From Desulfobulbus sp. (GTDB lineage: Bacteria; Desulfobacterota; Desulfobulbia; Desulfobulbales; Desulfobulbaceae), in NCBI GenBank assembly GCA_030602145.1, contig JAUWAH010000048.1:1-10204 (forward strand): 10,204 bases of DNA, given 5' to 3'. A program made the position numbers and the translations under genes. This document shows, one piece after another, positions 2-10,036 of the stretch. Below the pieces are notes generated by a model that did no database searches, was not told the origin of the DNA, and was given only the letters and a program-made list of their open reading frames with translations. The stretch's first letter is position 1; each line of letters starts with the position of its first letter.

Positions 2-505
2 TTCAGCGACCAGACCGTTGCCGCGACCGCATCCATCAAGAGCGTCAGGTATCCGACCACCCTTGAACTGATCGCCAAGGAAATCGTGACCCATACCCAG
101 ACCCGCAGCTATTTCCGGGTCGACGCCGCTACCCGGGTTGCCGCCTCGTCGGTGGTCCGGCAGGAAATGTCGCGGGAAGGTGAAAGCTGGCGGCGGTTGG
201 GCGATACCATCGACCTGAGCGGCAGCGGCCTGCTGTGCAGCTTCAGCGAACCACTGACCAAGGGAATCAACGTCCGCATCGAACTGACGCTTCCAACCCG
301 GAACATGGAGATCATCACCGCCCTTGGGCACGTGGTCCGCTGCCGTAAAATCGAGGACCATCTCTATCATGTCGCCCTGCATTTCGACAGTATCGACGCC
401 GACAGCCAGGACAAGATCATGGCCTGCTGTTTCGAGTTGCAGCGTCGCTATCTCCGCATGCGGGTTCGGGTAGAAGGTTCAGCAGCGATCGATGACCAGG
501 CTTGA
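2..505 (+). CDS. PilZ-domain c-di-GMP-binding protein (5'-truncated by window edge)
   Basis: The frame is open from base 2, so the gene begins before the window; the GTG at 86 is only an internal candidate. The 28 codons before it match the end of the N-terminal domain seen in the next gene. The PilZ domain starts with RSYFR (104-118), the RxxxR c-di-GMP-binding motif, and is followed by DLSGSG (212-229), the DxSxxG motif. Both nucleotide-binding motifs are therefore intact. The C-terminal part has the VALHF beta strand and ends in an Arg-rich helix. From the family, the expected role is a c-di-GMP receptor, probably of the YcgR flagellar-brake type with an N-terminal YcgR-like domain plus PilZ. 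It lies 38 bases before a paralogous PilZ gene and upstream of FliK/FlhB-like genes, which suggests motility control. The N-terminus, true start and promoter are outside the window. Confidence 0.9.
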   Translation, partial: FSDQTVAATASIKSVRYPTTLELIAKEIVTHTQTRSYFRVDAATRVAASSVVRQEMSREGESWRRLGDTIDLSGSGLLCSFSEPLTKGINVRIELTLPTRNMEIITALGHVVRCRKIEDHLYHVALHFDSIDADSQDKIMACCFELQRRYLRMRVRVEGSAAIDDQA

Positions 506-543
506 ACTTCTCAACTTCTTTAGCCCATGCAGCCTGAAACGCC

Positions 544-1218
544 GTGGCCAGAATCAACGAAATCCTTGAAAAACTGATCGACAACACCCGTGTGGTGGTC
601 GATATTCCCGGCAACAGCGAGGACTGTTTCCGGTACAATGCCTTGCTGATCAAACGAGAAGCACCGCTCTTCGAGTTGCTTTTTCCTCCAAACTCCTGGA
701 ATATCGAAGATCTCAACATCGGGGCCGACTGCACCCTGGCGGTGGACCACAATGGCATGACCATCAACCTGGTCGCCCGGCTCGACGGTGTGATCAACGA
801 TCGCCGGCTCGGGTTCACCGCTCGCGAACCGCTGGCACCGGAGTCCTTACGTGATTACTTCCGGGTGTCGATCAATCTGCCCATCGAAGCCAGCTACATT
901 GCCGGCCTCAAGGAAGTAAAGATACAATCCTGGAAACTCAAGGGCACCACCCTGGATATGAGTGGCAGCGGCGTACTGGCCCTGTTCGACGAAAAACCGC
1001 CCAGCAACCATCGCATTCAACTGGTCATCACCGTGCCCGGCGAAGAAACGCCCATCGCCTGCCTGGCCAACGTGGTCCGCTCCTACAGGATACGGAAAAA
1101 CCGTTTCCAGGTGGCCCTCCATTTCGAGCACATCTCGACAAAAACGCGGGACATGGTCATAGCATGCTGCCTGCAGGAACAACGCCGCCAGCTTCGGGAA
1201 AACGTGCAGGCCCTGTGA
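544..1218 (+). CDS. PilZ-domain protein with YcgR-like N-terminal domain
   Basis: This 224-residue protein has two domains. Residues 1-95 form a beta-rich region resembling the YcgR-type N-terminal domain, and residues 100-208 form a PilZ domain. The c-di-GMP-binding motifs are intact: RDYFR (103-107) and DMSGSG (138-143). It is clearly paralogous to the preceding gene. Both share the VVR...VALHF...ACC...QRR..LR pattern in the same order, so a tandem duplication is the simplest explanation. The GTG at 544 is the first start after an in-frame TGA at 535, and the next Met is residue 72, inside the N-terminal domain. No good Shine-Dalgarno sequence precedes it, so translation may be coupled to the upstream gene. 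Expected role: cytoplasmic c-di-GMP effector acting on motility or surface behaviour. The partner is not known from sequence. Confidence 0.9.
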   Translation: MARINEILEKLIDNTRVVVDIPGNSEDCFRYNALLIKREAPLFELLFPPNSWNIEDLNIGADCTLAVDHNGMTINLVARLDGVINDRRLGFTAREPLAPESLRDYFRVSINLPIEASYIAGLKEVKIQSWKLKGTTLDMSGSGVLALFDEKPPSNHRIQLVITVPGEETPIACLANVVRSYRIRKNRFQVALHFEHISTKTRDMVIACCLQEQRRQLRENVQAL

Positions 1219-1356
1219 TGTTTTCAAACATTGCGCCACGAGTCTCCTGAACCCGACGCTTCACCAGCCACCCCTGCCTAGCCCGCGGAACACCTCCGGC
1301 TACGGGCCACGACACGACCGGGCCGTGGACTTCGTCCATCCGTATGGGGGATCACC

Positions 1357-2862
1357 GTGGATCCGTTGACCCTGATCACCGACATTCAACCTCTGGCTCC
1401 AGCACGTTTCGGCGGAGAACAGCCTCAACGCGCCCCCTTCTTCCAGGGCCAACTGCTGCAAGGTCTGGTGACCGCCAAGGGCGAGGGGCAGCAGTTCACC
1501 CTGGAGATCAACGGCCGACCGGTCAGCGCCGAATCAGCCGCCCCCCTACAAATCGGGCAACGACTCGACCTCCACGTTGCCGCACTGGCGCCGAGGATGG
1601 AGCTGCAGATCGTCGCCGCCAATCCGGTCAACCGCTGGCTGGGCTCCGCCCTGCCCCTGCTCGGTCAACACACGACCCTGCTGCCCGCAGTCGCCACCTT
1701 GGCCGAGGATAAGAGTCTGCTCAGCGGCATGAGTCCGGCTGCCCGGGCCACGCTCCAGCTCTATGCCGGATTCCTGCCCCAGATGGAAGGAGGCCCAACC
1801 GCACCCTCCCCGGCTTCCGTGCACCTGATCAATCTGATAGGGCAAACCGTCACCACCCCGGGCGACCGGCAACTCCAGGCCCTGGCCTTCAAGATCGGCG
1901 GACTGCTCGAGCAGATCGCCAGCACGCCCTTGCTCTCCGCGCAAACCGCCGCCGCGGCAAGCCGCCTTGCCGAGCACTTCAACCAGGCGGCTCTGCGGGG
2001 TGATTTTTCCGCCATGAACGCCGATCCCAGATCGCCTGTTCTGCAAACCAATACGCAAACACCTGGAGCGGCGTCCCCATCGCCACAACCGGGAACATTG
2101 GCGACCATTCCACCCACGCTGCTGCTCCTCCCTAACTTGCCCGCCGTTCTGAAGGCCATCGAAACACTGCCGGACACCCACCCGCTCCGGCAGGTGCTCA
2201 CCCTCGTCACGCAGGTAGAAGGGGAGAGGTCGACTGCCGCCGGCCCCCATGCCGGAGGGACTCTCCTTCATGACCGCGTGCATGGATTGGGCCTCAACAT
2301 GGAACGGCTGCTGGCCGGCGACAGCCCGGAAGAAGCCATCCGCACCCTCAAATTCGCCCTGCTCGAGGTGGCCGGACGGGCTGAAGCGGCCAGCGACCGT
2401 AACCTTTCGCCGGAACGGATGGTGCAAACCCTGGAACTCTATCAACTGCTCCAGCTTCGACTGGCCGGAGAAGCGCTCATTTTCCTGCCCCTGCCGTTTC
2501 CATTTCTGCAGCAGGGGTTTCTCCTTATCGACCGGGATCGCGCCGGTAAAGATCAGGATGATGCCGGACAACAGACCGATCGCCCCAACCAGTCCGCCAG
2601 CCTGCACCTGCAGCTTGAAGGGCTGGGCAACCTGCAGATCGACATCCACCGCCAGGAGGATCGAATTGCACTCACCTTTCGTGCCGAGCAACCGGAACAG
2701 GCCAGATTTCTCGCCAAATTTCGCGACGAGCTAGAACAGTGGATCACCGGAGGCCGGTTGGAATCGGTGCAGTTTCTGCTGGGCGCGAAGGAGCCGAACA
2801 GAACGCTTCTGGAGACCATCGTCGGTCAGGGCGGCACTGGCATGATCGACACCACAGCGTGA
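1357..2862 (+). CDS. FliK-like protein with C-terminal Flg_hook (hook-length control) domain
   Basis: This 501-residue protein starts with GTG at 1357, preceded by GGGGG at 1346-1350 with a six-base spacer. Residues 413-478 have the FliK C-terminal pattern: two amphipathic strands with an L-x-L-x-x-L-G-x-L repeat, then F-R-A-E...R..L...F-x-x-E-L...W-I..G-R-L, then V-x-F. Residues 360-392 (hydrophobic, with LPLPFPF) are typical of the YlqG-like subgroup. The remaining N-terminal 350 residues are Ala/Pro/Gln/Leu-rich with little conservation, as expected for FliK proteins. It is followed 25 bases later by a stand-alone FlhB tail, as in the Bacillus ylqG-ylqH pair. In FliK the C-terminal domain contacts FlhB to switch export specificity. 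Here the partner could be the small FlhB-like protein, but this is inference. It may be an auxiliary protein rather than the main hook-length ruler. The 138 bases upstream (1219-1356) hold no gene and no clear T-tailed terminator. Confidence 0.78.
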   Translation: MDPLTLITDIQPLAPARFGGEQPQRAPFFQGQLLQGLVTAKGEGQQFTLEINGRPVSAESAAPLQIGQRLDLHVAALAPRMELQIVAANPVNRWLGSALPLLGQHTTLLPAVATLAEDKSLLSGMSPAARATLQLYAGFLPQMEGGPTAPSPASVHLINLIGQTVTTPGDRQLQALAFKIGGLLEQIASTPLLSAQTAAAASRLAEHFNQAALRGDFSAMNADPRSPVLQTNTQTPGAASPSPQPGTLATIPPTLLLLPNLPAVLKAIETLPDTHPLRQVLTLVTQVEGERSTAAGPHAGGTLLHDRVHGLGLNMERLLAGDSPEEAIRTLKFALLEVAGRAEAASDRNLSPERMVQTLELYQLLQLRLAGEALIFLPLPFPFLQQGFLLIDRDRAGKDQDDAGQQTDRPNQSASLHLQLEGLGNLQIDIHRQEDRIALTFRAEQPEQARFLAKFRDELEQWITGGRLESVQFLLGAKEPNRTLLETIVGQGGTGMIDTTA

Positions 2863-2887
2863 GGCAACCAATGTCCGGAGGAACGCC

Positions 2888-3196
2888 ATGAGCGACCAAC
2901 GCGCAACCGGCAGGCGGGCCGTGGCCCTGCTCTACGATCCGGCCAAGGGGGCTGCCCCCAAGGTCGTGGCCAGTGGGGCCAACCTGGTGGCCGAAAAAAT
3001 CATCGCCGCAGCGGCAGCCGCCGGGGTGCATATCAAGGAAGACCGTGATCTGGTGGAACTTTTATCCAAGGTCCCTGTCGGCGAGGAAATACCGGTCGAA
3101 CTGTATCAAACCATCGCCGAGGTCCTGGCCTTTGTCTATGCCGTCAACAGCAGGTATAAAAGCATCAAGGAGACTTCCGGTTCTGCTGACCGATAA
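2888..3196 (+). CDS. Stand-alone FlhB C-terminal-domain protein (YlqH/FlhX-like export switch homologue)
   Basis: This 102-residue protein matches only the cytoplasmic tail of FlhB/YscU/EscU. Visible elements, in order, are AVALLYD (11-17), the APKVVASGANLVAEKI block (23-38), DLVELL (54-59), and the ending IPVELYQTIAEVLAFVY (68-84). In full FlhB the AVAL..YD stretch directly follows the self-cleaving NPTH loop. Here that place holds TGRR, and there are no membrane helices, so no autocleavage is expected. It starts at ATG 2888 with a strong GGAGG (2877-2881) and a six-base spacer. It is 25 bases behind the FliK-like gene and almost certainly co-transcribed. Family members of this size are annotated as FlhB-related switch proteins of uncertain function. 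A role in flagellar export or substrate switching is inferred. The Arg/Lys-rich C-terminus after residue 88 is variable. Confidence 0.88.
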   Translation: MSDQRATGRRAVALLYDPAKGAAPKVVASGANLVAEKIIAAAAAAGVHIKEDRDLVELLSKVPVGEEIPVELYQTIAEVLAFVYAVNSRYKSIKETSGSADR

Positions 3197-3259
3197 ACGC
3201 TCTTCTGGCTGACGATTCAACCGGCGCATCCGGAAAAAGATGCTCCTTGAAAAAACCTC

Positions 3260-3288
3260 TTCATATTCAATCTGTTCTGACGTATACT
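3260..3288 (+). promoter_or_regulatory. Candidate sigma70 promoter for the Roadblock-mglA unit
   Basis: TTCATA at 3260-3265 (4 of 6 to TTGACA) is followed by a 17-base spacer and TATACT at 3283-3288 (5 of 6 to TATAAT). It lies in the only sizeable gap before the Roadblock gene, in A/T-rich DNA that contrasts with the flanking GC-rich genes. The predicted start near 3295 would give a leader of about 160 bases. A TTGACA at 3290-3295 has no matching -10. This is a sequence match only. Confidence 0.4.
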
Positions 3289-3318
3289 TTTGACAACTGA
3301 GAAGAACCGGCCAAGATC

Positions 3319-3347
3319 CCATTGAAAAAATTCGTTTTTTTGAATGG
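3319..3347. repeat. A/T-rich imperfect inverted repeat between two transcription units
   Basis: The arms are CCATTGAAAAAA (3319-3330) and TTTTTTGAATGG (3336-3347). They pair over 5 + 6 bases around one G-G mismatch, with a five-base loop. A seven-T run lies at 3335-3341 inside the 3' arm. It could be a weak terminator for the FliK/FlhB-like genes, a leader hairpin of the following operon (it is downstream of the candidate start near 3295), or simply bent A/T-rich DNA. The sequence does not decide between these. Confidence 0.3.
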
Positions 3348-3453
3348 CCATCTTTGGTGCCGTTGCTTTGAAGGACCTGTATCTGACGTGATTCGCGCAA
3401 CCATACAACTTCTCTCCCACCCCCCACTTATTCGAACGTGTACGAGGTAGCAT

Positions 3454-3855
3454 ATGAATTATGGAGTTGTTAGCCAGGAGCAGCTTGAGAAAATCGACGA
3501 AATCCTGACTGAAAAGCTCATAAAAATTGGTGTCGACTGCGTTATCATCATCGACATGGCCGGCAACATCATCACCGCCAAGGACAACGGCACATCAAAA
3601 TACGATGTTTATTCCTTTGCCGCCCTGGCCGCCGGAAACTTTGCCACTGTCGACGCCATGGCCAAGCTGGTCGGGGAACAGGAGTTTTCCTTGCTGTTTC
3701 ACAAGGGCTCGGAATGCAACATCCATTTTTCAAAGATCGACGATGAACTGCTGCTCATCACCATGTTCGGCAAAAGCATTTCGCTTGGTTTCCTTCGCCT
3801 CAATGTTGTGGAAACCATTGAACGCATCAAGAAGATCTGGTCCCGCAGCAGCTAA
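3454..3855 (+). CDS. Roadblock/LC7-domain protein, MglB-like partner of MglA
   Basis: This 133-residue protein is essentially one Roadblock/LC7 domain. It has an N-terminal helix (residues 6-25), the strand-turn DCVIIIDMAGNII (28-40), the ALAAGNFATVDAMAKLVGE helix region (57-75), an F-x-x-x-F-H-x-G strand (78-85), LLLITMFG (99-106) and a final helix to residue 130. The A-x-x-A-G-N-x-A-x-x-x-x-x-A-K-L-x-G-E pattern is characteristic of MglB-type Roadblock proteins, which act as homodimeric GTPase-activating proteins for MglA. It sits directly before mglA, in the Myxococcus mglB-mglA order. It starts at ATG 3454 with GAGG at 3444-3447. Compared with Myxococcus MglB (about 159 residues, from memory) it lacks the acidic C-terminal extension and stops at residues WSRSS. 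I am sure of the domain. GAP activity on the neighbouring GTPase is inferred from gene order. Confidence 0.9.
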   Translation: MNYGVVSQEQLEKIDEILTEKLIKIGVDCVIIIDMAGNIITAKDNGTSKYDVYSFAALAAGNFATVDAMAKLVGEQEFSLLFHKGSECNIHFSKIDDELLLITMFGKSISLGFLRLNVVETIERIKKIWSRSS

Positions 3856-3935
3856 CCGATCGCACAGTTTTTTGACATCGGAGCACTATTGCTGTTGCAT
3901 CGTCGGCGATCAGTTCAAGTCCGCGGGAGAGTACT

Positions 3936-4541
3936 GTGAGTTTCATCAACCTTAGGGAAAAAATCGTTCAGGTGAAAATTGTCTACTACGGTCCTGGCCG
4001 TGGCGGCAAGACCACCAATCTCGAATATATCAACAGGAAGTTCTCCAAGCAGATTCAGTCTGAGATGGTCAGCCTGAAGACCCACGGAGACCGAACCCTG
4101 TTCTTTGACTTCTTGCCCTTCAACATGGGCCAAATCAAAGGCTACGACCTCAAAATTCAACTGTACACCGTTCCCGGTCAGGTCAAATACAACGCCACCA
4201 GAAAACTGGTGCTCAAGGGTGTGGACGGGATTGTCTTTGTTGCCGATGCCCAGGAGCAGATGCGGGAAAAAAACATCCGCTCGCTCAATCAGTTGCACGA
4301 AAACCTCATGAGCTACAAAGAATCCATTTTCCGTCTTCCCCTAGTGCTGCAATATAACAAGGTTGACCTCCGCAACCAGGGCATTCCTATTTTGCCGACC
4401 TCTGTCCTCGACAAGGATCTCAACAGCAAGCTCAAGGTGCCCACTTTTGAAGCAAGCGCACTCACAGGATATAATGTTCCGGAAACGCTTAAAAAAATCA
4501 TTTCATCCACGGTTATCTCCATCCAGAAGAAATTAATGTGA
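3936..4541 (+). CDS. mglA: MglA-type small Ras-like GTPase
   Basis: This 201-residue protein is MglA-like from the first residues (MSFIN). All GTPase motifs are present: P-loop GPGRGGKT (19-26), switch I containing THGDRTLFFDFLP (49-61), switch II YTVPGQ (77-82), NKVD for guanine specificity (141-144) and EASA (172-175). The numbering matches Myxococcus MglA, including Arg53 and Gln82, the residues described there as needed for hydrolysis. Lys25, Thr26, Thr54 and Asp58 are also kept. The P-loop reads R-G where Myxococcus has L-C at 22-23. MglA acts as a GTP-controlled polarity switch for gliding or type IV pili. The target here is unknown. The GTG start at 3936 is supported by GGGAG at 3925-3929. 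The gene lies 80 bases after the Roadblock gene and 37 bases before the acidic protein, which suggests one operon. Confidence 0.95.
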   Translation: MSFINLREKIVQVKIVYYGPGRGGKTTNLEYINRKFSKQIQSEMVSLKTHGDRTLFFDFLPFNMGQIKGYDLKIQLYTVPGQVKYNATRKLVLKGVDGIVFVADAQEQMREKNIRSLNQLHENLMSYKESIFRLPLVLQYNKVDLRNQGIPILPTSVLDKDLNSKLKVPTFEASALTGYNVPETLKKIISSTVISIQKKLM

Positions 4542-4578
4542 CGGGGCAGGCCGTGGAGGCCATCACCAGAGTCGGTAT

Positions 4579-7242
4579 ATGAAAAAATCGCAGCGTGACC
4601 ATATTTCTTCAATGGATGATTTTGAAGATCTGACCCTTTTTGCCAATGAATCGTTTGATACGCAAGACGTCGATCTTTTTGAATTCACCAGTGAGGAATC
4701 CTCGCCGCTGACGCGGCTCAAATCGATCATCCTGTCGTTGGATTGGGAAATCAACGACGAGATCCTCCAGGAACTGGACGATGAACTGGTCAACCTGCAA
4801 GCCATGTGGCAGGGGGACAAGGTCGCCGAGGTCTACCTGCAGGGGCTCAGTAAGATCGGCAGCTATATCCGGACAAAAGGGGCGTACGCCCACCCCAATT
4901 CTATCAAGCTGCTCCTGACCTTCTTCTACAATTTCGAGAAAATCATCTCGTCCGAGCAGATCACTGGCGAGCAGATCACCCAGTTGCTGAAGGGAGATGT
5001 CCGCAAATTCAAGATACTGCAGTACCAGATCAACCAAAGCGAGACCACCGCTCCGGCCGTCGGCGATGCGCTCTTGTCCACCGAACAAAGTGGTGCCGCC
5101 CCAGCCCCCAGCCCAGCCCCTGAGCCGGAAGATCCCTCCAAGCAATTGAAGGCCGCCATTCTCAGTCTGGACTGGGAGGTCACCGATGAGAGCCTGCGCC
5201 AGTTCAACGACAAGATCGCCGGATTTTACCCTCATATAACCGATAACAAGCCGGCATTAGTGCTGGTTCAGGGACTGCAAGCACTCGGCGACTACATTGC
5301 CGAAGAGAGGGCCGATGCCCATCCCGAAGCTTTCATCCTGCTCCATGCTTTCAACGAAGCCCTGGACCAGGTCCTGCATCCGGAAGCGCACCGACTGGAT
5401 CAGGGAGGTGTCCAGGAATTGCTCGTTGACCGGATCAATCGGTTAAACAACCTGAAACTGCTGATCACCTCTCCTTCAGGCGCTCTGGTTGACGATCAAC
5501 GGATTGACGAGGTGGTCGAGGAACTCAGCGCTCCCGTTGCCGTGGAACAGCCGGCCCCCGCTGTCGAGAAAACCCAGCCGGAGGCCGTTGCTTCCATCTC
5601 GCCTGCCGAAGCGCCGGCCATCGATAGGGGGGTCGGTCAAGCACCCGAGCCCGCACCATCCACCGACAGTCTGGAGGCGGAGATTGACACCCTGTTCAAC
5701 ATGGATGCCATGCCGGCCATGGAATCCGCCGATGTCCAGTATCCCGACGAAGTGCTGCCTCCGGACGCCATCCACCCCATCGAGGATGAGTTGCCCGATG
5801 ATTTCATCGAATCGCAACTCAGCAGCAAACGTGGCCTGATGCCGGCCTTGGCCGATGCCGAGGAATCGTCCGGTTTCAACGAGAACGCACAACCTCTGGA
5901 TCTGCCCACCCAGAGCGATCTTGCCGAACAATTGGATTTTCTCTTCGCCGACTCGGAGTCAAGCGGCGAATCGGCAATCACCTTTTCCGCCCTCGATTCC
6001 GCTGAACTGGAACTGGCCATCGCCCATGACGACGATGAGCCCGTGGCTACGGCCGATGGCAATGAGGCTGACGAGGATCTTGAAGAGGCTACAGCACCAT
6101 TCCTGTCAGCCCTGTCCGACGCGGAGATACCGGAGGGGCGCGAAGATGAGGCCCTGGAGTTGGAGACTGCCGTCCCCGACAGCAATGTTTTCGACATCCA
6201 GAGTAAACTGGACAGCTTCTTTGCCGACGCCGACGCCGACGAGGAGCCCTTGGAGGCAACCGCTCCCGCATCAACAGCCGTCGACGAAATTGAGCAGGAA
6301 CTGTTTTTCGACGAGGAAGACACCGTCCAGGCTGCTTTGGCTGACAGCGAGGAGGATCGTGGTTTTTCCGAGGAGGCCGAGGTCGCAGCCCTCAGTTTCA
6401 CGCCCTTGGATGAAATCGAGGAAAAGCTTGATTTCTTCTTTGGCACCGACACTGAAGATGAATCCGACGCAGCCCTGGGCATGGGCGATGTGACGATGCG
6501 GCAGCCATTGGAGGAGGCTTTGGATTTGACGGTCGGCGCACCGGAAACGGTGGCTGATATCGCGCCGGCCCTCTCCGGTTTGGCAAGCGACGAGCCGACG
6601 GTTGAGGAAGATTTTGATCTGTTGGCGGATGAAGACCAGCCGGTCGAGGAACTCACCGGGGCGCTCGACGCCTTTTTCGTGGAAGACCAGGAAACCGAAC
6701 CTCCTCTCTTCACCCCGGTCGACGAGTTGACTTCAGCCCTGGAAGCCACCATGGCCGATGACCAACCCGATTCCGCCGAGATCCAGCTGGCAACCCTGGG
6801 CGCCTTGTTGCCGGCGGTGGTTCGAGCCCCGGCCCGCGACAACATCGTCAAGGCCGTGGAGGCCATCGTCGCCCTCAAGCAACTGGATCTGTCGGCCACC
6901 CAGTTGGCCCTGGTGCAGTTGCTGGAATCGGTGCTCACCCTGCTGATCCGGTTGCCCACCAGGGAGGACGCCGCCACCGAAAAACTGGTGAACCACCTCT
7001 ACCAACAGCTCATTGCCGAGCACGGTCAACTGGACGTTCTAGCCGAAGCCGTTGGTCGGTATACCACCTGGCTGCAACAGGCCACCGCCATCATGCCGGT
7101 TGTACCGGCCGCCAGCGATCAGGACCAGGAAACATCCTTCACCTACACGGGCAAGGAACTGTATTTCGAACTGGCCGAGCTTCGCTCCCATATCCGTGAC
7201 GAGTTCGTCAAACTCCGCCGCGAATTGCACCACCACAAATAG
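4579..7242 (+). CDS. Large acidic multi-domain protein of unknown family, linked to Roadblock-MglA
   Basis: I do not recognise a named family. The 887-residue protein has no signal peptide or membrane segment, so it is probably cytoplasmic. Residues 47-123 and 190-266 are two copies of a helical domain sharing L-K-x-x-I-L-S-L-D-W-E, Q-G-L...G-x-Y-I, and A-H-P. Each is followed by a short helical segment. A Pro/Ala linker lies at 171-186. Residues 310-730 are very rich in Asp, Glu and Ala and probably disordered. They carry seven short motifs (see the repeat entry). Residues 731-835 look helical again, with a Leu-rich core. Residues 858-885 form a likely coiled coil ending in HHHK. ATG 4579 is the first start in this frame after mglA; its ribosome site is weak (a GGAGG at 4555-4559 is too far away). 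It lies 37 bases after mglA and before a terminator, so it likely works with the GTPase as scaffold or effector (inference). Confidence 0.88.
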   Translation: MKKSQRDHISSMDDFEDLTLFANESFDTQDVDLFEFTSEESSPLTRLKSIILSLDWEINDEILQELDDELVNLQAMWQGDKVAEVYLQGLSKIGSYIRTKGAYAHPNSIKLLLTFFYNFEKIISSEQITGEQITQLLKGDVRKFKILQYQINQSETTAPAVGDALLSTEQSGAAPAPSPAPEPEDPSKQLKAAILSLDWEVTDESLRQFNDKIAGFYPHITDNKPALVLVQGLQALGDYIAEERADAHPEAFILLHAFNEALDQVLHPEAHRLDQGGVQELLVDRINRLNNLKLLITSPSGALVDDQRIDEVVEELSAPVAVEQPAPAVEKTQPEAVASISPAEAPAIDRGVGQAPEPAPSTDSLEAEIDTLFNMDAMPAMESADVQYPDEVLPPDAIHPIEDELPDDFIESQLSSKRGLMPALADAEESSGFNENAQPLDLPTQSDLAEQLDFLFADSESSGESAITFSALDSAELELAIAHDDDEPVATADGNEADEDLEEATAPFLSALSDAEIPEGREDEALELETAVPDSNVFDIQSKLDSFFADADADEEPLEATAPASTAVDEIEQELFFDEEDTVQAALADSEEDRGFSEEAEVAALSFTPLDEIEEKLDFFFGTDTEDESDAALGMGDVTMRQPLEEALDLTVGAPETVADIAPALSGLASDEPTVEEDFDLLADEDQPVEELTGALDAFFVEDQETEPPLFTPVDELTSALEATMADDQPDSAEIQLATLGALLPAVVRAPARDNIVKAVEAIVALKQLDLSATQLALVQLLESVLTLLIRLPTREDAATEKLVNHLYQQLIAEHGQLDVLAEAVGRYTTWLQQATAIMPVVPAASDQDQETSFTYTGKELYFELAELRSHIRDEFVKLRRELHHHK
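5671..6765 (+). repeat. Coding array of seven acidic-flanked short linear motifs in the large acidic protein
   Basis: The core is hydrophobic-x-x-x-(Leu/Ile)-Asp-x-(Phe/Leu)-Phe followed by acidic residues. Copies by residue: 365-376 (EIDTLF), 448-460 (QLDFLF), 540-552 (KLDSFF), 571-581 (degenerate, ELFF), 613-626 (KLDFFF), 692-705 (ALDAFF) and 717-729 (degenerate, ALEATM). Copies two, three, five and six are preceded 25-29 residues earlier by an A-L-(A/S) box, mostly A-L-(A/S)-D-(A/S)-E. The true repeat is thus about 40 residues long. Copies five and seven are also preceded by F-T-P-(L/V)-D-E. Divergence between copies indicates an old, selected array rather than recent DNA slippage. Confidence 0.8.
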
Positions 7243-7267
7243 GCGAAAACCGCCACGCCTTTACCAC

Positions 7268-7305
7268 GGGGATCGGAGCGCAGCTCCGGTCCCTTTCTTA
7301 TTTTC
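7268..7305 (+). terminator. Rho-independent-type terminator after the large acidic protein gene
   Basis: GGATCGGAGC (7270-7279), loop GCA, and GCTCCGGTCC (7283-7292) form a 10-bp stem with one G-U pair, extendable by one or two pairs outward. A T-rich tail follows at 7294-7305 on the + strand. It begins 25 bases after the stop of the acidic protein gene. The tail overlaps the stop codon of convergent yejE. In the - direction the hairpin lies just past the yejE stop but lacks a U-tract. Confidence 0.7.
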
Positions 7306-8332
7306 TGGGATCAAACGCCTCCCGCAGGGCTTCGCCAATGAAGATGAGGAGGATCAAGGTCCCCACCAAGACCACGAAGGTGGAGAGTGACAGCCACCAT
7401 GCCTCGATGTTGGCCTTGCCCTGGGCCAGCAGTTCGCCAAGGCTCGGGGTCGAAGGTGGAACGCCGAGCCCGAGGAAGTCGAGGCTGGTCAGGGCAAGAA
7501 TGGCACCGGACATGCGAAAGGGCAGAAAGGTGATCACCGGGGTCATGCTGTTGGGCAGGAGATGGCGGCCCATGATGGTGAAATTGGAAACCCCGAGTGC
7601 CTTGGCCGCCTTGACATACTCCATGTTTCTCCCCTTGAGGAACTCAGCCCGCACATAGTCGGACAGCCCCATCCAGCCAAACATGGACAGCAGGACCAGA
7701 AGCAGGAGCAGACTCGGCTTAAAAATGGAGGCGAAGATGATCAGCAGGTACAGTTCGGGCATGGAACCCCACAGTTCGATGAACCGCTGCATGAACAGAT
7801 CGAGCCGGCCACCGAAGTATCCCTGCAAGCCGCCGGCCGCGATCCCGAGCAAGGTCCCAACGGCGGTCAGTGCCAACCCGAAGAGCACACTGAGACGAAA
7901 TCCGTACAGCAGCCTCGCCAAAACATCACGGCCGCGGTCATCGGTACCGAGGTAATTTTCCTGGCTGGGCGGCGACGGCGTCGGTCGATCGAGGGCCTGA
8001 TTGATGGAATTGTAGCTGTGGGGATTGAGAGGAAAGACAACGAAATTGCCACCACTGGTCAATCGCTCCCGGATATAGGGGTCGCGGTAATCGGTCTCGG
8101 TTTCGAAATCACCGCCGAACACCGTTTCCGGATACATCCGTAAGAGCGGATAATAGAACTGCTGCTCATACCGGACCAACAACGGCCGATCATTGCTGAG
8201 CACTTCGGCAAACAGACTGACGCCGAACAGCACCAGGAACAGGACGAGGGAAACAAAACCGCGGCGGTTCTGCTTGAACCGCAGCCATCTTTTTCGTCCG
8301 AGACTGATCGGTCTGCCCTGTTCCCGCACCAT
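7298..8332 (-). CDS. yejE: YejE-type ABC transporter permease (peptide/microcin C importer family)
   Basis: This 344-residue inner-membrane permease matches E. coli YejE along its length. It has the N-terminal RF.QNRRG..SL..FLVLFG segment with the first membrane helix (24-45), then a periplasmic insert (46-125) with NDRPLLVRY and the PSPPS..N-x-LGTDD-GRDVLAR junction (117-140). The transport domain has further helices near 143-168, 194-216 and 262-285. The ATPase-contact (EAA) loop is YVKAAKALGVSNFTIMGRHLLPN (239-261), and the protein ends in IGEALREAFDP. I chose ATG 8332 because AGGGAG lies seven bases upstream. The longer reading from 8380 would add 16 residues that E. coli YejE does not have and would overlap yejB. 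The start lies four bases after the yejB stop, so translation is probably coupled. It forms the pore with YejB. The ATPase YejF is not downstream here. Confidence 0.93.
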   Translation of the reverse strand: MVREQGRPISLGRKRWLRFKQNRRGFVSLVLFLVLFGVSLFAEVLSNDRPLLVRYEQQFYYPLLRMYPETVFGGDFETETDYRDPYIRERLTSGGNFVVFPLNPHSYNSINQALDRPTPSPPSQENYLGTDDRGRDVLARLLYGFRLSVLFGLALTAVGTLLGIAAGGLQGYFGGRLDLFMQRFIELWGSMPELYLLIIFASIFKPSLLLLLVLLSMFGWMGLSDYVRAEFLKGRNMEYVKAAKALGVSNFTIMGRHLLPNSMTPVITFLPFRMSGAILALTSLDFLGLGVPPSTPSLGELLAQGKANIEAWWLSLSTFVVLVGTLILLIFIGEALREAFDPRK

Positions 8333-9453: not shown

Positions 9454-9864
9454 TCAGGAAATCCTGATGGAGGAGAGAAAATCCGGCTCGTCATTCTGAG
9501 CGGCCGGTTTCCGCTGCCGCTCGGCCACACGGATCGGTTCCGCAGGCTGGGCCTCGGGCTCCGGTTCGAAGCCGGGTTCGACAAAGGCTGTCCGCGGAGG
9601 CGCAACGGCCTGCCGAGACCGGATAACCGGTTGGGGAGGCGGCGCGACGACAACGATCGGTTCGTCGACCAATCGCTCCTGCCCCACCGGCTTCTTGAGA
9701 AAGGCAAGCACGCCGTCCTGGAGCAGGGTCACACTGACCAATTCCCAGCCTTGGCCGCCCATCTGGTTGAGGGTCTTTTCCATCTCCTCGTCATCGACAT
9801 ACTTATCACCCAACAGGCCATCCTTCGTGAATTCAAAAAGCATGGTCCGATATTGCCACAGCAT
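9454..9864 (-). CDS. DUF4177-type small protein with Pro-rich C-terminal tail
   Basis: This 136-residue protein is not known to be an enzyme. Residues 1-58 look like a DUF4177 domain: W-x-Y-(K/R)-T at 3-7, a helix with D-D-E-E-M-E-K-T-L-N at 24-33, G-x-x-G-W-E-L-V-S-V at 37-45, and a final strand GVLAFLKKP. The rest (60-125) is Pro/Ala/Glu-rich and probably disordered, ending in a separate tip DEPDFLSSIRIS. There is no signal peptide or membrane helix. I took ATG 9864 rather than a start at 9933 because AAGGAG lies six bases before it and the domain begins at this Met. It lies 73 bases upstream of yejB on the same strand and may be co-transcribed. No functional tie to the importer can be read from the sequence. 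Confidence 0.82.
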   Translation of the reverse strand: MLWQYRTMLFEFTKDGLLGDKYVDDEEMEKTLNQMGGQGWELVSVTLLQDGVLAFLKKPVGQERLVDEPIVVVAPPPQPVIRSRQAVAPPRTAFVEPGFEPEPEAQPAEPIRVAERQRKPAAQNDEPDFLSSIRIS

Positions 9865-9870
9865 GTTCTT

Positions 9871-9876
9871 CTCCTT
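9871..9876 (-). promoter_or_regulatory. Ribosome binding site fixing the DUF4177 protein start
   Basis: A perfect AAGGAG on the - strand lies six bases before ATG 9864. The 23 extra residues of the longer in-frame reading to 9933 are basic and unlike the domain, so they are taken as untranslated leader. Confidence 0.75.
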
Positions 9877-10036
9877 CCGTCTCTCGCGTTGACACGCCGT
9901 GCTCCTTTCTGCACCCTTTCCGTTAGGTGGCATGGAGCCGGCAATTATCCGCCTCGCGGCGTTGATCGATATTCAACGGCACACACCGGCCTCATTCGGA
10001 GAAGAGGAGATGCGTACCCATTCGTCGACTTGGCAC

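Follow-up and report, generated by a model that had tools for sequence, protein, structure and literature searches.

MglA polarity is understood in detail chiefly from Myxococcus. There SgmX, a large cytoplasmic effector of MglA-GTP, ties MglA to the positioning of PilB, the pilus ATPase, at the pole (PMC7519303), and RomY, a protein of 188 residues whose one conserved domain, of about 82 residues, is N-terminal, acts together with MglA-GTP and MglB and stimulates the GTPase-activating protein (GAP) activity of MglB (PMC9481161). RomR has a disordered region, and its C-terminal helix binds the Roadblock protein MglC (PMC12719032). Fixed gene sets around MglA/MglB homologues are on record for other MglA groups, such as the conservon (CvnA-D) of actinobacteria; the neighbourhoods of Group 1 MglA are highly variable, with PATAN proteins as occasional neighbours (PMC4316618). 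FimL of Pseudomonas aeruginosa is a polar protein that acts in type IV pilus control; it contains two Hpt-like domains whose acceptor sites are occupied by glutamine, and is homologous to the N-terminus of ChpA, a CheA homologue (PMC3019171). Here we describe a three-gene locus of Desulfobulbus sp. in which genes for a Roadblock protein and MglA are followed by a third gene, for an 887-residue acidic protein (hereafter, the third protein) built on a domain resembling P1 of CheA. The locus lies in a stretch of 10,204 bases (the window), which is one whole contig (JAUWAH010000048.1) of an incomplete genome (GCA_030602145.1, here G000; 481 contigs, 72% complete). The third protein is very probably a dedicated functional partner of Roadblock-MglA.

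The open reading frames of the window bore out the same-strand module of the preliminary description: the Roadblock, complete MglA and 887-residue genes all lie on the forward strand, with gaps of 80 nt and 37 nt, and a terminator-like hairpin follows the third gene, where a terminator had been proposed (Table 1). As 3100-7500 holds nine terminator-like sites where 4.5 ± 2.6 would be expected, this long hairpin is the sole convincing one; it may also serve a convergent gene whose end is at 7298. Residues 1-194 of the GTPase can be aligned with MglA structures in the PDB (E 2e-51), and the protein also matches Ras/Arf Pfam models. By the criteria of PMC4316618 it is of the Group 1 type, having TVPGQ in G3 (as YTVPGQ), an intrinsic arginine beside the G2 threonine (Arg-Thr in GDRTLFFDF) and a Roadblock/MglB gene coupled to it directly 5'. 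The Roadblock protein matches the Roadblock/LC7 model PF03259 at 25.4 bits (cut-off 23) and is the sole such match in the incomplete genome; it matches NF052242 (Thermus-type MglB) at E 2.1e-15, but with 57.1 bits against a model cut-off of 200. The net charges of MglA, Roadblock and the third protein are +13, -4 and -142, respectively.

Conservation of the third gene beside mglA in other genomes had been set beforehand as the main test, and it is extensive. A narrow profile (domain 1 of the third protein) matched 55/395 genomes of the phylum and 121/193 of the order, and a broad profile was used on the MglA genomes that the narrow one missed. MglA was found in 151 of the 193 order genomes. 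Among 107 narrow-profile genomes placed by coordinates, 105 have the domain 34-430 nt 3' of MglA on the same strand, the two others being G171 (MglA not found) and G447 (MglA on a different contig); 13 of the remaining 14 are adjacent as well, and the gene of G536 is cut by a contig end. Of the 32 MglA genomes that the narrow profile had not picked up, 31 gave a match with the broad one. The domain adjoins MglA in 24 of the 25 that had MglA coordinates (G416 has no match, and its MglA stands at a contig end) and in six of the other seven (in G439 the domain is on another contig and MglA near a contig end). In total, 148/151 MglA genomes of the order (118 + 24 + 6) carry the domain just 3' of MglA, with G447, G439 and G416 as exceptions.

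The pairing extends across the phylum. In a sample of 148 genomes the domain was found in 42 and MglA in 86. Thirty-five of the 42 best phylum MglA matches (at least 204 bits) have the gene within 1.5 kb 3', three from one family have it 5-7 kb 3', and four lack it. No domain match was seen by eye near phylum MglA rows below 204 bits, a bound that is not sharp, as some MglA of the order sample slightly under 204 bits do have an adjacent domain. The four exceptions, G033 and second MglA copies in G105, G161 and G134, belong to a different operon type, with no match to the window's Roadblock. In this second type (L127 2129-3933, L128 2087-3927, L129 1953-3867, L130 1772-3643) the gene after MglA encodes some 390-414 aa, with DUF4388 and a cyclic-nucleotide-binding domain (3/3 scanned), and the gene before MglA has sub-threshold TPR matches (2 scanned).

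We also read 40 regions around the domain, comprising 20 in which the immediate neighbourhood was for the most part already familiar (not in G422) and 20 weaker ones in which it was new (but for G107); seven weaker rows of the 395-genome phylum search were left out. Roadblock and MglA adjoin the third gene in 34/40 regions and in 16/20 of the weaker ones (L051 has the order MglA-Roadblock), and in stretches of 3 kb and larger the same arrangement was found beyond Desulfobulbaceae. Two of the six regions without the full triad are affected by contig ends (L046 has MglA, and the contig ends before Roadblock; L076), three from one family have MglA 5-7 kb upstream of the P1-like gene (L066, L072, L077), and L062 has neither Roadblock nor MglA beside it. 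In L072 (10481-11575) and L132 (5916-7013), of one family, MglA is directly followed by a 364-365-aa protein with no clear Pfam match; in L072 its end is CheW-like by eye, and the P1-like gene lies 5-7 kb further on.

The architecture of the third protein was as first described: a duplicated helical domain, a disordered acidic motif array and a helical end (Table 1). In the AlphaFold model (mean pLDDT 60.3) the confident helical parts are residues 43-157, 186-297, 714-838 and a helix at 858-886, and the intervening sequence is mostly of low confidence. P1-like domains 1 and 2 are 32% identical to each other, and the helical domain at 714-838 is probably a divergent third copy, although the family profile gives no match there. 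Elsewhere a third copy is clear in L063-L065, reaches E 1e-4 in L135 and appears as 25 weak rows at E ≤ 1 among the 120 homologues listed. Alignments of 28 and 75 homologues showed an invariant-like N-terminus, two helical domains and a conserved C-terminus, with a variable acidic linker between.

The linker carries a short, acidic, amphipathic motif, which in the small relatives takes the form RLDxLFGE or EIDxAIDxLFVE. Five strict copies fall within residues 301-727 of the window protein against a mean of 0.045 and a maximum of 2 in 5000 shuffles, a comparison that is post hoc for the window in that the pattern had been derived from the family beforehand. The 115 homologues of at least 800 aa have a median of five strict copies (range 2-7). 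A motif stands N-terminal of the first domain in 31/40 third proteins against 0.24 expected from shuffles, with a pattern written after the sequences had been seen. The motif is present in 32/34 third proteins beside Roadblock-MglA and in 0/8 away from it (seven P1-like proteins and that of L062).

Judged by its fold, by profile comparison and by the CheA that the family profile retrieves (E 2.0e-4), the core domain is CheA-P1-like, i.e., a pseudo-Hpt. The models of relative P0121 and of window domain 2 have the five-helix fold of CheA P1/Hpt, with Z borderline for a helical bundle. HHalign against 20 CheA-like sequences gave Prob 82 for the family, 92.4 for its second-clade half and 3.1 for the window's clade alone. 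Unlike CheA P1, the domain has no counterpart of the conserved phospho-histidine (HxxKG helix) in an alignment of 43 family sequences, where the sole column with His in at least 8/43 sequences (20/43) differs from the one aligned to HxxKG. Neither the window protein nor ten relatives scanned gave a PF01627 (Pfam Hpt) row at E ≤ 0.1 or a match to the kinase (HATPase) domain, and the Pfam scan of the window protein gave no CheW-like domain, which some relatives have. The third protein adds a 'LSLDWEI' signature and the acidic motif helices. The preliminary description had placed it in no recognised family; this stands insofar as neither Pfam nor NCBIfam (E ≤ 0.1) nor the PDB sequences (E ≤ 1) gave a match, and it is modified by the CheA-P1-like core, which is common to small relatives.

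A protein search gave 271 homologues at E ≤ 0.001, of which 120 were listed. A genome-collection scan gave 14 close loci in Desulfobulbus, Desulfogranum and other records, 13 of them with Roadblock and MglA directly 5' of the large gene (the contig of L009 starts inside it); over the best segments, MglA and Roadblock there are 84-99% identical to the window's and the large protein 44-69%. The small relatives (200-300 aa) have an N-terminal motif such as EVSNRLDELFGDE, a single domain with 'LSLDWEI', a linker and a C-terminal helix IKxxIxxEFxxLRxEI. Because the P1-like core is common to them, the 887-aa size and the motif array are elaborations. A second clade, whose MglA is 50-59% identical to the window's, has the motif EIDxAIDxLFVE, at times repeated, and some CheW-like C-termini: PF01584 was above cut-off in 3/10 scanned (L082 E 1.6e-17, L081 4.7e-12, L074 1.3e-5) and below it in L079. 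A precomputed PF01584 label stands on 101/120 matches listed, from a protein search partly seeded with CheW-bearing second-clade sequences. At the other extreme, L133 and L134 (one genus) have third proteins of 2539-2639 aa with a net charge of -892 to -908 and long acidic repeats that contain SFFG; these proteins keep the N-terminal segment and both P1-like domains, end in a helix like that of the window protein, and have the loose motif pattern once, with 13-16 S(F/L)FG units in its place. A 611-aa homologue of the third gene occurs in L125 (G171, same genus as the window, 99% complete), with no MglA or Roadblock found in the 4.4 kb read upstream.

Table 1 Features of the Roadblock-MglA-third protein locus, with stand-alone paralogues from other regions
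Feature	Position	Strand	Basis
Roadblock/LC7 protein, MglB-like, 133 aa	3454..3855	+	PF03259; NF052242, under cut-off
MglA small GTPase, Group-1 type, 201 aa, GTG start	3936..4541	+	PDB MglA alignment; motifs; charge
Third gene, 887-aa acidic protein, doubled P1-like domain	4579..7242	+	Translation, homologue alignments, AlphaFold model
N-terminal conserved acidic segment EDLTLFANESFDT..DLFEF, residues 14-42	4618..4704	+	Many nearly invariant columns, 75 homologues
P1-like five-helix domain 1, LSLDWEI signature, residues 41-151	4699..5031	+	Profile i-E 6.2e-35 (profile trained on relatives of the window protein); AlphaFold helices
P1-like five-helix domain 2, residues 184-296	5128..5466	+	
Motif copy 1 LEAEIDTLF	5671..5697	+	Strict pattern
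Motif copy 2 LAEQLDFLF	5920..5946	+	Strict pattern
Motif copy 3 IQSKLDSFF	6196..6222	+	Strict pattern
Motif copy 4 IEEKLDFFF	6415..6441	+	Strict pattern
Motif copy 5 LTGALDAFF	6652..6678	+	Strict pattern
C-terminal helical domain, residues 714-838	6718..7092	+	AlphaFold model
C-terminal helix IRDEFVKLRREL, residues 858-886	7150..7236	+	Alignments, AlphaFold model; resembles small relatives' C-terminal helix
Terminator-like hairpin, 12 pairs, T-rich tail	7268..7294	+	Hairpin scan
Stand-alone paralogues	L139 3822-4856; L140 2887-4296; L141 3589-4833; L143 3936-5108; L144 3424-4677; L145 840-2036		

Not all homologues of the domain stand beside mglA, which qualifies the expected placement there. 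In the phylum sample 11/46 domain rows have no MglA within 1.5 kb, and in the broad-profile order search (32 genomes) 33/57 have no placed MglA within that distance, 20 of these 33 being in genomes whose MglA place was then known (7/32 genomes had no MglA place yet). We read eight places away from MglA (L139-L146). Six of them (L139, L140, L141, L143, L144, L145) encode proteins of 344-469 aa with a single P1-like domain and an end that is CheW-like by eye, for which no Pfam match was found in the three scanned, and L146 is a true CheA with Hpt, kinase, CheW and receiver domains. Since stand-alone homologues were read there, the P1-like domain is not confined to MglA operons. The pairing is nevertheless prevalent, and within the places read the paralogues are motif-less and the motif-bearing form is what accompanies MglA operons. 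The 344-469-aa paralogues have 'QDW' for 'LDW', and PilZ-looking and other genes recur beside several of them. At its end, the 203-aa P1-like protein of L142 (3390-4001) matches an AbiEi-type antitoxin domain below threshold.

That the third protein binds MglA or Roadblock directly is likely, because of its pairing with Roadblock-MglA, the accompanying motif helices and the charge contrast with MglA. Beyond this we lean slightly towards a pseudo-phosphotransfer scaffold dedicated to the MglA switch, probably acting as an effector on a polar machine; that it is an effector, as opposed to a regulator of the GTPase, we regard as evenly balanced. The plan in the small relatives is an acidic amphipathic helix, one histidine-less P1-like domain, a linker and, at the C-terminus, a further helix. 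On this reading the window's lineage acquired a second (and probably a third) P1-like domain and an array of motif copies along a very acidic linker, so that the scaffold would be multivalent. The partners, direction of signalling and output that we infer for this scaffold are as follows. The amphipathic motifs and acidic linker may be the docking site of the Roadblock dimer or of MglA, a basic protein, probably in its GTP-bound form; the P1-like domains may bind a signalling or polar-machine partner, as proposed for the pseudo-Hpt FimL; and the C-terminal helix may oligomerise or anchor. The GTPase cycle would then decide where the scaffold gathers a polar machine, e.g., a pilus ATPase.

FimL would be the nearest analogue in mechanism and SgmX the nearest in role. 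Compared by description, FimL resembles the third protein in that window domains 1 and 2 are two Hpt-like domains without the histidine; it differs in that no motif array or MglA/Roadblock neighbours are described for it in the available part of PMC3019171. The likeness to SgmX lies in the PilB/GspE-type ATPase genes near some relatives of the third gene, whereas SgmX has TPR domains and the third protein no TPR match at E ≤ 0.1. A PilB/GspE-type ATPase cluster is within 8 kb in 14/40 regions, and MshEN and T2SSE domains were found in both ATPases scanned as representatives, those of L058 and L072; the L058 protein is closest to PilB chains, with GspE shortly behind. The window has no such cluster near the triad. 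Profile searches of its genome for pilus/secretion-type ATPases and flagellin gave six T2SSE and three flagellin-N matches, so the output in this organism could be pili or flagella. A recurring gene set lies 3' of the triad in L058 (8516-15300), with similar clusters in L048, L050 and L054: a 156-162-aa protein, a HAMP protein, a 326-aa protein, a receiver-DUF4388 protein, a 123-aa protein and the PilB/GspE-type ATPase with MshEN.

The same data bear on other roles. The third protein might instead regulate the GTPase cycle, as a co-GAP or exchange factor with Roadblock, like RomY with MglB in Myxococcus. RomY, set beside it here by published description, is a small protein that stimulates MglB GAP activity (PMC9481161), and the third gene accompanies Roadblock-MglA pairs and is absent beside the four MglA copies without a Roadblock match; growth to 887-2639 aa and a net charge of down to -908 suits a scaffold better, and we consider such a regulator rather unlikely. 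An input adaptor, i.e., a kinase-less CheA remnant passing chemosensory or response-regulator signals to MglA like RomR, would agree with the CheA-P1 homology, the CheW-like ends of some second-clade proteins and the receiver-DUF4388 and HAMP genes 3' of the triad in L058. The motif also resembles the FliM N-terminus that binds CheY (EIDALL). However, there is no phospho-histidine column, the window protein has neither a CheW-like nor (unlike RomR) a receiver domain match, and there is no response regulator among the window proteins scanned, so that an adaptor appears distinctly unlikely.

In JGI, several clusters are named 'pilus assembly protein FimV'. Since what is conserved consists of P1-like domains and short motifs, this name probably stems from the acidic low-complexity sequence, and with no FimV core, C-terminal or LysM domain found (NCBIfam/Pfam, E ≤ 0.1) a FimV-like polar landmark is very improbable. 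Operons can also last by descent, and the correlation seen among the pairwise distances of the three genes could come from shared ancestry alone. The pairing, however, lasts across many families, changing flanks and two MglA clades, and the motif accompanies it, which makes neighbourhood hitch-hiking with no functional link extremely improbable.

More tentatively, we suggest a broader possibility, namely that a whole class of Roadblock-MglA systems of this phylum may have a standing CheA-derived third subunit that lost the histidine, dropped the kinase, kept the CheW-like part in some members (not the window's clade) and has acidic helices where it stands beside MglA. If so, a chemotaxis-kinase scaffold would have been rewired to read a Ras-like GTPase, not phosphate, with the acidic repeat region as its tunable part (up to 2639 aa, net charge -908). 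The third gene 3' of MglA in so many genomes is a handle on the role of these switches in these bacteria and suggests that CheA-type signalling proteins and small-GTPase switches are linked in evolution, and the 200-300-aa versions make the system tractable at the bench. The preliminary description had regarded the component as undescribed, and a literature search of titles and abstract openings turned up no description of a third gene beside mglA; the P1-like gene also goes unmentioned in the available part of the survey in PMC4316618. MglA modules and pseudo-Hpt proteins are each known, and their standing combination in one operon is new as far as that search shows.

The flanks of the triad hold further genes. 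On its 5' side (window 86-3196) are two PilZ genes, a FliK-like gene and a short gene related to the FlhB C-terminus, a block kept beside the triad in several Desulfobulbaceae loci (L003, L008, L010-L013). On its 3' side, the opposite strand has two transporter-like genes, presumably of a peptide-type ABC transporter (YejB/YejE), and a gene for a small protein (9454-9933) with a sub-threshold DUF4177 match, which is kept past the transporter genes in several close loci.

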